A stretch of 64,000 nt of DNA from Thermococcus gorgonarius. GTDB lineage: Archaea > Methanobacteriota_B > Thermococci > Thermococcales > Thermococcaceae. Shown in pieces: positions 1,377 to 29,050 of this stretch (position 1 is the first letter of the stretch; each line of letters starts with the position of its first letter). The stretch lies in the NCBI RefSeq assembly GCF_002214385.1, contig NZ_CP014855.1, positions 1,240,001 to 1,304,000 of the forward strand, in the 5' to 3' direction. The notes below the pieces were generated by a model. It was given only the letters and a program-made list of their open reading frames with translations, ran no database searches and was not told the origin of the DNA. A program made the position numbers and the translations under genes.

Positions 1377-2007
<631 letters not shown>

Positions 2008-14687: not shown

Positions 14688-14712
14688 TTTATCACCTGGG
14701 TATGTTTGGGCT

Positions 14713-14727
14713 AAAGGTTTAATAAGC
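14713..14727 (+). promoter_or_regulatory. TATA box driving the C/D sRNA and its downstream gene
   Basis: AAAGGTTTAATAAGC contains TATA-like TTTAATAA at about 14718-14725. Standard spacing puts the start near 14747, 5 nt before the C box of the sRNA. Confidence 0.55.
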
Positions 14728-14749
14728 CCCCCCATTAATGAAAGCTAGC

Positions 14750-14806
14750 CGATGATGAGTGTCATCCCTCCTGACCCCAAGATGATGACATTATCCCCAC
14801 CTGAGG
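14750..14806 (+). ncRNA. C/D box sRNA (2'-O-methylation guide), overlapping the RBS of the next gene
   Basis: All four boxes are present with archaeal spacing. Box C is ATGATGA (14752-14758), a 12-nt guide gtgtcatccctc follows, then box D' CTGA (14771-14774). A short spacer leads to box C' ATGATGA (14782-14788), a 12-nt guide cattatccccac, and box D CTGA (14801-14804). Boxes D and D' select the nucleotide pairing with the fifth guide base upstream, so both guides target a G. Box D shares its GA with the Shine-Dalgarno GAGGTGA of the CDS starting at 14814, so guide and mRNA leader must come from one transcript or compete. Targets were not searched. Confidence 0.88.
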
Positions 14807-14813
14807 TGATCCA

Positions 14814-15281
14814 ATGTTCGGTTTCCTGAGAAGAAAGAGAGAAAAGCACGGGCCCTTTGTATATCTCAGCGAACCGACTTTCCTGTATCACACCAGAACG
14901 GAGAAGGCCATAGTGGAAATTATAGAGGAGAAGTTGAACTCTACCAACATCCTCGTGCCCTCCAGATACGGTCTAAGGGACACGAGCGGGCGGATCAAAG
15001 AGGCCGAATACCTCGTTGCAGTTGCACCGCTCGGCAAGTTTACCTCGCTCGTTGGTAGAGAAGTAAAAATCGCTCAAGAGTTCGGCGTCAAGGTCTTCAC
15101 CCTACTAATCGCCAGAGAAGGGGACGAGCTCGTCTACCTCTGGGTCGAGGGCGTTCCGGAGGACATCGAGTGGCTTTCGCCCGAGGAGACAGAGGAGTTC
15201 ATGAAGATTTTCCTCAACAGCGAATTTATGGATTACATGAAGAAAGCCCTTCTCTTCGGCTCAAGGAAAAGGGAATGGTAG
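14814..15281 (+). CDS. conserved hypothetical protein
   Basis: A 155-aa soluble protein with a basic N-terminus (MFGFLRRKREKHG) and a mixed alpha/beta body. LSEPTFLYHTRTEKAIVEIIEEKL, LVPSRYGLRD and EAEYLVAVAPLGKFTSLVGREVKIAQEFGVKVFTLLIA suggest a small Rossmann-like or nucleoside deoxyribosyltransferase/TIR-like fold (VAVAPLGKFT after a helix). No catalytic motif was recognised. Its RBS AGGTGAT overlaps box D of the C/D sRNA upstream, so translation may depend on processing of that RNA. It faces nfnL convergently, 15 nt away. Confidence 0.7.
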   Translation: MFGFLRRKREKHGPFVYLSEPTFLYHTRTEKAIVEIIEEKLNSTNILVPSRYGLRDTSGRIKEAEYLVAVAPLGKFTSLVGREVKIAQEFGVKVFTLLIAREGDELVYLWVEGVPEDIEWLSPEETEEFMKIFLNSEFMDYMKKALLFGSRKREW

Positions 15282-27810: not shown

Positions 27811-28194
27811 TCAGAACACCGCTATAGCCTCCACCTCAAGATCGACCCCTTTGGGCAGGTTTGAGACCTCAACTACCGCTCTAGCGGGCTTGGATTCGCT
27901 GAAAAACTCTGAGTAAACCCGGTTGAACTCATCGTACTTCCCAATGTCCCTGAGGTATACCGTGACCTTTACCACGTTCTCAGCACTCCCTCCAGCGCCT
28001 TCAACGACAGAGAGGAGGTTTCTCAGGGTCTGCCTGACTTTCTCCTCAAAGCTGCCCTCAACGGGCTTTCCGGTTGTTGGATCAAGTGGGATCTGGCCCG
28101 AAATGAAGAGAAACCTCCCAGAAGCCAGGATCCCCGGGCTGTACGGCCCAATGGGGGACGGGGCCCCGGGAGGGATCACGATTTGCTTCTCCAT
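27811..28194 (-). CDS. ridA: RidA-family enamine/imine deaminase
   Basis: A 127-aa trimeric YjgF/YER057c/UK114 protein that hydrolyses reactive 2-aminoacrylate and other enamines. Signature GPYSPGILASGRFLFISGQIPLDPTTG, the conserved Arg in ESKPARAVVEVSNLPKGVDLEVEAIAV and the C-terminal Glu are present. ATG 28194 is set by GAGGTGGTG. The first bases of this RBS are box D of a C/D guide RNA that fills the gap to the upstream gene. The longer frame to 28227 would run through the guide RNA. Confidence 0.92.
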   Translation of the reverse strand: MEKQIVIPPGAPSPIGPYSPGILASGRFLFISGQIPLDPTTGKPVEGSFEEKVRQTLRNLLSVVEGAGGSAENVVKVTVYLRDIGKYDEFNRVYSEFFSESKPARAVVEVSNLPKGVDLEVEAIAVF

Positions 28195-28202
28195 TTTCAC
28201 CA

Positions 28203-28262
28203 CCTCAGCGAAGCGAAGACTCCTCATCGGAGCCCCTCAGGTGTCCTCGGCCTCATCATGGA
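28203..28262 (-). ncRNA. C/D box sRNA between a stop codon and the ridA RBS
   Basis: Read on the minus strand: box C ATGATGA (28259-28253), 12-nt guide ggccgaggacac, box D' CTGA (28240-28237), an 8-nt spacer, box C' CGATGA (28229-28224, one change from consensus), 15-nt guide, box D CTGA (28208-28205). Box C contains the TGA stop codon of the upstream gene (28258-28256). Box D shares GA with the ridA Shine-Dalgarno GAGGTGGTG (28206-28198). It must therefore be cut out of, or be read through as part of, the mRNA. Targets were not searched. Confidence 0.82.
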
Positions 28263-29050
28263 GTCTTTTCGAGGTACTTTTCAAGGCTCTTCGATGGGAC
28301 GTCAAAGGGCAGGCCAATCGTCTCAACAGCCTTTCTGAGGGCATATAATCTGGCATGGGGCTCAAATTCCCGGGGTGAAACTTCGGACGGCTGGAATTCT
28401 AAGAACCTTTCAACAACCTTCGGTATGTCAGACTTTTTAACCTTCTTAAATTCTGAAAAGGCATCCTCAATACCGGCAACATCAATATTCGCATAAACCG
28501 GGAGTTTTGTCGTTATCGTTTCGTTTATGCTCGCTAATAGTCTAGCAACGTCTGCCATTTGGGTTGAATCGTCTATTATGAGTCTCTTAACAACTATCCA
28601 CTTTCCATGCTTTGCCGTGAAGTTGATGTGGTCACTGGCGAACGGGAGAACGATTCTAACCTCGTTTAAAGGCTCCTCCGGATAGTAAACATCCACAAAC
28701 CGGGAGAGAGTTTCCCTGACAAGGAGAGCCTTTGCAACATCAAGGAGAAGCTTTTTGAGCTTTTTGTCCTCTTCGTAGATATACGAATTCAACTTTCTCG
28801 AGGTTCCAGGCGATTTAAGGGCGATTAACGTTTCGGCGAGATCACCCTTGAGGGTCTCATTGACGAGGCTAAGCACACCGGTCACGTTGATAACATCGCT
28901 GAGGTATTCCGGTATCTTCATGGAGACAGTGTTAGAGACGCTGGACAAAAAGTGGGCTACTTTAACGTGGTCATCAACATCGAGAAGCTTGTCCCCAACC
29001 TTCCAGTTCCGATGCTTTGCTGTAAATATCACATGATCCTCAACTTTCAT
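28256..29050 (-). CDS. uncharacterised protein with internal tandem duplication
   Basis: A 264-aa soluble protein made of two similar halves. Residues 5-16 read DHVIFTAKHRNWKV and residues about 137-149 read DHINFTAKHGKWIV. After each comes a matching pattern of Asp-rich turn, helix LLxSxNxT and KxPxY(x)N(I)V. No catalytic motif or membrane helix was recognised. It may belong to a small archaeal DUF family, but I cannot name it with certainty. Its TGA stop is inside box C of the downstream C/D sRNA. The RBS is weak (GAGGGATGGG). Confidence 0.7.
   Translation of the reverse strand: MKVEDHVIFTAKHRNWKVGDKLLDVDDHVKVAHFLSSVSNTVSMKIPEYLSDVINVTGVLSLVNETLKGDLAETLIALKSPGTSRKLNSYIYEEDKKLKKLLLDVAKALLVRETLSRFVDVYYPEEPLNEVRIVLPFASDHINFTAKHGKWIVVKRLIIDDSTQMADVARLLASINETITTKLPVYANIDVAGIEDAFSEFKKVKKSDIPKVVERFLEFQPSEVSPREFEPHARLYALRKAVETIGLPFDVPSKSLEKYLEKTP

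Follow-up and report, generated by a model that had tools for sequence, protein, structure and literature searches.

A conserved overlap between the box C/D guide RNA sR55 and the Shine-Dalgarno sequence of a downstream gene in Thermococcaceae

About 7% of the C/D sRNA genes studied by Tripp et al. (2017) overlap the 5' end of a downstream ORF, as summarized in a later review (PMC7994747). The review describes the start codons of this 5'-overlap class as lying downstream of the D box, and the overlap as lowering reporter output. A related arrangement is found in the 5'-UTR of l7ae, where L7Ae masks the Shine-Dalgarno (SD) sequence of its own message through a K-turn (PMC5539422). For T. kodakarensis, 11 snoRNAs are placed within 5'-UTRs, and processing or cis-regulation is proposed for them (PMC4247193). 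The overlap of C/D RNAs with gene 5' ends and the masking of an SD by L7Ae are already published.

The locus described here lies in a window (the whole analysed stretch of 64,000 nt) that covers bases 1,240,001-1,304,000 of the single-contig 1.67 Mb genome of Thermococcus gorgonarius (G000). A cmscan comparison with Rfam identified sR55 (RF01307) at window positions 14748-14806 on the forward strand, scoring 64.3 bits where the cut-off is 35 (E = 3.9e-14). Of the 94 genomes of the family, 83 have an sR55 match that passes this cut-off, with every one of the six genera represented; the 14 control genomes have none. This score and this distribution indicate that the match is not due to chance, and by its sequence sR55 is a box C/D methylation-guide sRNA of Thermococcaceae. 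It consists of box C (ATGATGA, 14752-14758), the 12-nt D' guide GTGTCATCCCTC (14759-14770), box D' (CTGA, 14771-14774), box C' (ATGATGA, 14782-14788), the 12-nt D guide CATTATCCCCAC (14789-14800) and box D (CTGA, 14801-14804), and the original prediction had these four boxes and two guides right to the base. The relatives also carry boxes C, D', C' and D with guides of 10-12 nt, C' and D' being variable. K-turn geometry is well established, and following it we place a terminal stem between GCC (14748-14750) and GGT (14805-14807), with G14751 as the probable first bulge base.

The next gene, ORF155 (14814-15281, forward strand), starts with an ATG at 14814, 7 nt past the end of the Rfam match, and encodes 155 amino acids. 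Over 9 nt, its SD GAGGTGATC (14803-14811) complements the 3' end of the 16S rRNA from the same genome (GATCACCTCCT). The SD core GAGGTG is formed by the GA of box D and the 3' strand of the terminal K-turn stem, so that GAGGT falls inside the K-turn (GA from box D, GGT from the stem). Box D also provides a UGA (14802-14804) that is an in-frame stop four codons 5' of the ORF155 start; this closes the frame to any earlier start and, together with the conservation of the start codon, indicates that the start is sound. sR55 overlaps the translation start region of a downstream ORF on the same strand, as do members of the 5'-overlapping class of C/D sRNAs, and its K-turn contains or abuts the SD, a feature of leaders in which L7Ae controls translation by SD masking.

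To describe the conservation of this arrangement we took 81 loci, two of which (L077 and L080) are not sR55, leaving 79 true loci; a weak Rfam match in G010 was also left out of the sR55 count. sR55 is followed directly by an ORF155 homolog at 75 of the 79 loci, and the gap between CTGAGG and the start codon is 7 nt (61 loci), 8 nt (12) or 9 nt (2). Five further loci are fused too, so that the sequences show the fusion at 80 of the 84 sR55 loci, across six genera. The overlap proposed earlier, in which box D shares its GA with the ribosome-binding site of the next gene, is real and conserved. GAGGTG is kept in all 75 coupled loci; the match to the 16S rRNA is confined to these 6 nt in 61 of them and extends to 8-9 nt in 14. 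The 5' stem partner varies (ACC, GCC, TCC, CTC), and a fixed 3' strand with a variable partner is as expected if the SD, and not the stem alone, is under selection. The sole GGC 3' strand occurs in the decoupled relative L067, where no ORF155 lies downstream and the 5' partner is GCC; this pairing agrees with the placement of the stem, and as one case the change is only suggestive with regard to selection. The named relatives of ORF155 belong to Thermococcus and Thermococcaceae. One genome, G056, has two sR55-ORF155 units with different flanks (contigs C131 and C203, loci L033 and L078) and is possibly a mixed bin.

A promoter element with a BRE/TATA-like sequence (CTAAAGG TTTAATAAG, 14711-14726, forward strand) is present in the window, its TATA box lying about 27-34 nt before box C. 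Given a TATA-to-start distance of about 23 bp (PMC4247193), transcription is predicted to start at about 14746-14749, that is, at the 5' end of sR55. A TATA-like word 15-42 nt upstream of sR55 occurs in 43 of the 81 loci, the window among them, so the suggestion that a TATA box is placed to allow one RNA to cover both sRNA and gene holds for these. Many of the remaining loci carry another conserved element in front of sR55, which has a TATA-like word of its own at a greater distance. An element of this kind, about 110 nt long and directly 5' of sR55, was observed at some 25 loci in several genera, for example L020 (about 1560-1720, reverse strand), L010, L022 and L004 (GGGATGAC...AACCGATGAC...). 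It has no Rfam match and no consensus fold, and a search of the window's genome did not find it.

We compared the guide complements with the rRNA of the same genome, as had been suggested, and found that the 23S rRNA contains two matching sites separated by 22 nt. The D' guide forms a 10-nt Watson-Crick run with CAGGGATGACAG and the D guide one of 9 nt with CTGGGGATAACA. The rule that places methylation at the fifth base before box D or D' gives G2520 (D') and G2542 (D), in the numbering of this genome, as predicted targets. We take these to correspond to about 2424 and G2446 in E. coli numbering and to adjoin the peptidyl-transferase center. A 16S target for the D guide, which had been proposed as possible, does not hold up, the best match there being 8 nt against 9 and 10 nt in 23S. 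Shuffled guide pairs never matched over equal lengths at sites within 100 nt of each other (0 of 3000 pairs). All genera keep the D' guide core, and genus g3 has a weaker D guide. These pairings give good support to sR55 as a trans guide, probably a functional one that directs 2'-O-methylation to two neighboring nucleotides of the 23S rRNA. They also bear on the idea that sR55 is a K-turn leader acting only in cis, with no more than the appearance of a guide RNA; this has been put forward for some of the T. kodakarensis 5'-UTR snoRNAs (PMC4247193) and is compatible with the position of sR55 in a presumed 5' leader. Both guides, however, fit adjacent 23S sites beyond chance, and sR55 keeps its boxes and guides in two lineages in which ORF155 does not directly follow, which makes it very probably a real trans-acting guide and leaves the purely cis-acting role highly improbable.

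These lineages comprise four relatives that probably represent two decoupling events. In G075, G079 and G084 a gene is inserted between sR55 and ORF155, placing them 694-758 nt apart; sR55 retains its boxes and guides, and ORF155 retains an SD (TGAGGTGAT) and has no box C. In G001 the two are on different contigs, and ORF155 has GGGGGTGAT and no C/D RNA. A decayed second copy of sR55 before ORF155 was considered for the decoupled relatives and rejected, there being no similarity beyond the SD. Nor is there a C/D RNA upstream of the ORF155 homologs from 11 genomes that represent three further families of the class. Taken together, the decoupled lineages and these outgroups place the origin of the fusion at the base of Thermococcaceae or earlier. 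Since both halves survive apart, sR55 can be kept without an adjacent ORF155, and ORF155 without sR55.

The decoupled relatives bear on a dedicated switch, in which the K-turn would sense free L7Ae or a C/D core protein and ORF155 expression would change to serve some physiological need, by analogy with the l7ae leader. The SD core inside a K-turn, the masking of the SD in the l7ae 5'-UTR by L7Ae (PMC5539422) and the conservation of the fusion in six genera would fit such a switch. The K-turn is not retained wherever ORF155 is kept, however: the four decoupled relatives have ORF155 and its SD without the K-turn boxes, indicating that the gene can dispense with K-turn control, and the outgroup homologs have no C/D RNA at all. 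Loss of the boxes with retention of the ribosome-binding site had been named beforehand as an outcome that would speak against the regulatory proposal; it does so for an indispensable K-turn switch and leaves interference at the fused loci unaffected. Family, domain and fold searches also revealed no known link of ORF155 to ribosome or sRNP biology. ORF155 has no domain in Pfam, none above cut-off in NCBIfam and none among PDB sequences, and the fold search gave weak matches resembling nucleoside 2'-deoxyribosyltransferases (best E 7e-3, TM about 0.4), so we describe it, from its translation and these searches, as a conserved protein with weak resemblance to that fold. Its basic N-terminus (MFGFLRRKK...) is missing from the homologs in other families. 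We regard the dedicated sensor as decidedly unlikely.

The same type of fusion recurs on other C/D sRNAs. In the window, sR45 (28194-28263, reverse strand) takes up the space between two genes; the stop codon of the upstream frame lies within its box C, and its box D (CTGAGGTG) is the SD of a RidA-like gene. Relatives carry further fusions, namely sR20 with a Nudix gene, snoPyro_CD with FEN1, sR51 with a cobalamin-type P-loop enzyme and sR10 with a phosphatase-like gene (gene names were read from translations, and sR20 was assigned by homology). In one relative, G005, box D is followed by GGTG and a start codon in at least 4 of the 34 C/D sRNAs that were parsed completely, a lower bound from a strict pattern applied to this genome, and about 0.02 would be expected by an estimate from simple base frequencies. 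This proportion fits the 7% of 5' overlaps given in the review (PMC7994747) and the 11 T. kodakarensis 5'-UTR snoRNAs (PMC4247193). Some matches to the pattern of CTGAGGTG followed by ATG are ordinary overlaps of a gene stop with an SD, for example before a ribosomal protein gene, and raw pattern counts therefore overstate the fusions; a reversed-pattern control was near zero. At four loci (L221-L224) a C/D RNA resembling sR20 stands before a Nudix gene in genus g1 and is missed by the Rfam sR20 model at its cut-off.

The overlap may be explained by economy of sequence alone: the bases of box D and the stem would be a good SD by coincidence, the overlap being a harmless by-product of a compact genome in which neither partner matters to the other. 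The genes that follow fused sRNAs (FEN1, RidA, Nudix, phosphatase-like, ORF155) share no common theme, ordinary gene stop codons overlap the same CTGAGGTG-type SD (as also reported in the abstract of PMC2784483), and the two halves were separated in two lineages and both survived. Yet an sRNP and a ribosome exclude each other on the same bases, so that some interference is expected physically, and the lowered output that the review attributes to 5' overlaps in reporters (PMC7994747) points the same way. The fusion has also outlasted several rearrangements of the region upstream of sR55. We consider economy without any consequence for either partner somewhat unlikely. In Thermococcaceae the genes with K-turn SDs (ORF155, RidA, Nudix, FEN1 and others) might form a set of mRNAs that are translated less at high levels of C/D sRNP assembly, which would let the capacity for ribosome modification tune a few unrelated genes; this we find quite unlikely.

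The reading we prefer, with a probability of roughly 60%, is that one transcript has two exclusive fates, sRNP or mRNA, and that guide assembly damps translation. sR55 is placed so that its terminal K-turn (box D and the 3' stem strand, CTGA-GGTG) serves as the ORF155 SD, and a single promoter would give a single RNA in which sR55 is the 5' leader of the ORF155 message. Assembly with L7Ae, Nop5 and fibrillarin would engage the SD core in the K-turn, and trimming would occur nearby. A transcript that is assembled and trimmed would become a guide and be lost as an SD-bearing mRNA, whereas one bound first by the 30S subunit would be translated, and the assembly of guide RNA would in this way damp ORF155 translation. 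The fusion would persist mainly because box D and the stem are a ready-made SD in a compact genome. We infer cotranscription, exclusive fates and damping from the anatomy of the locus and from precedent (PMC5539422; the review PMC7994747). Masking of the ORF155 SD by L7Ae and its destruction by excision of the guide, both part of the original prediction, are putative, with the same precedents. We judge it likely that assembly and excision damp translation, and a dedicated sensor unlikely. Several observations weigh against the preferred reading. At roughly half of the loci no TATA-like word lies immediately before sR55, and the reporter effect of Tripp et al. (2017) is described, in the review (PMC7994747), as one on transcription. 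Should about 7 nt of leader survive trimming, the near-leaderless mRNA could still be translated. A stem of 3 bp is weak unless protein stabilizes it, and the minimum-energy fold predicted for the leader without protein does not form the K-turn; any masking should therefore depend on L7Ae.

If this reading is true, two unrelated machines, guide sRNP and 30S subunit, have shared about six bases for as long as an archaeal family has existed, and the same solution has been reached repeatedly. The locus set, with its natural decoupled controls, is suited to questions of how a guide is excised from a leader and what becomes of the message. Our literature search found no description of the sR55-ORF155 SD fusion and no paper naming sR55 together with Pyrococcus.

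In boxes, guides and size the RNA in the window is like the Rfam sR55 and belongs to it. The class of arrangement is that of the 5' overlaps of Tripp et al. (2017), as the review presents them (PMC7994747), with the difference that in sR55 the overlap consists of box D and the stem serving as SD, at a spacing that is nearly constant across the family, and that several sRNAs share it. Like the l7ae leader (PMC5539422), sR55 places a K-turn at the SD in a 5' leader, and mutual exclusion of L7Ae and the 30S subunit is expected in both; the l7ae element, however, is a simple K-turn without guides, whereas sR55 is a full guide sRNA with trans targets, and its regulation is only putative. For the 5'-UTR snoRNAs of T. 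kodakarensis, the identity of box D with the SD and its conservation are not discussed in the available part of the report (PMC4247193). What appears to be new is that the letters of the K-turn are themselves the SD, at nearly fixed spacing, throughout a family and in several unrelated sRNA-gene pairs, single cases of which the study of Tripp et al. (2017) may already hold.
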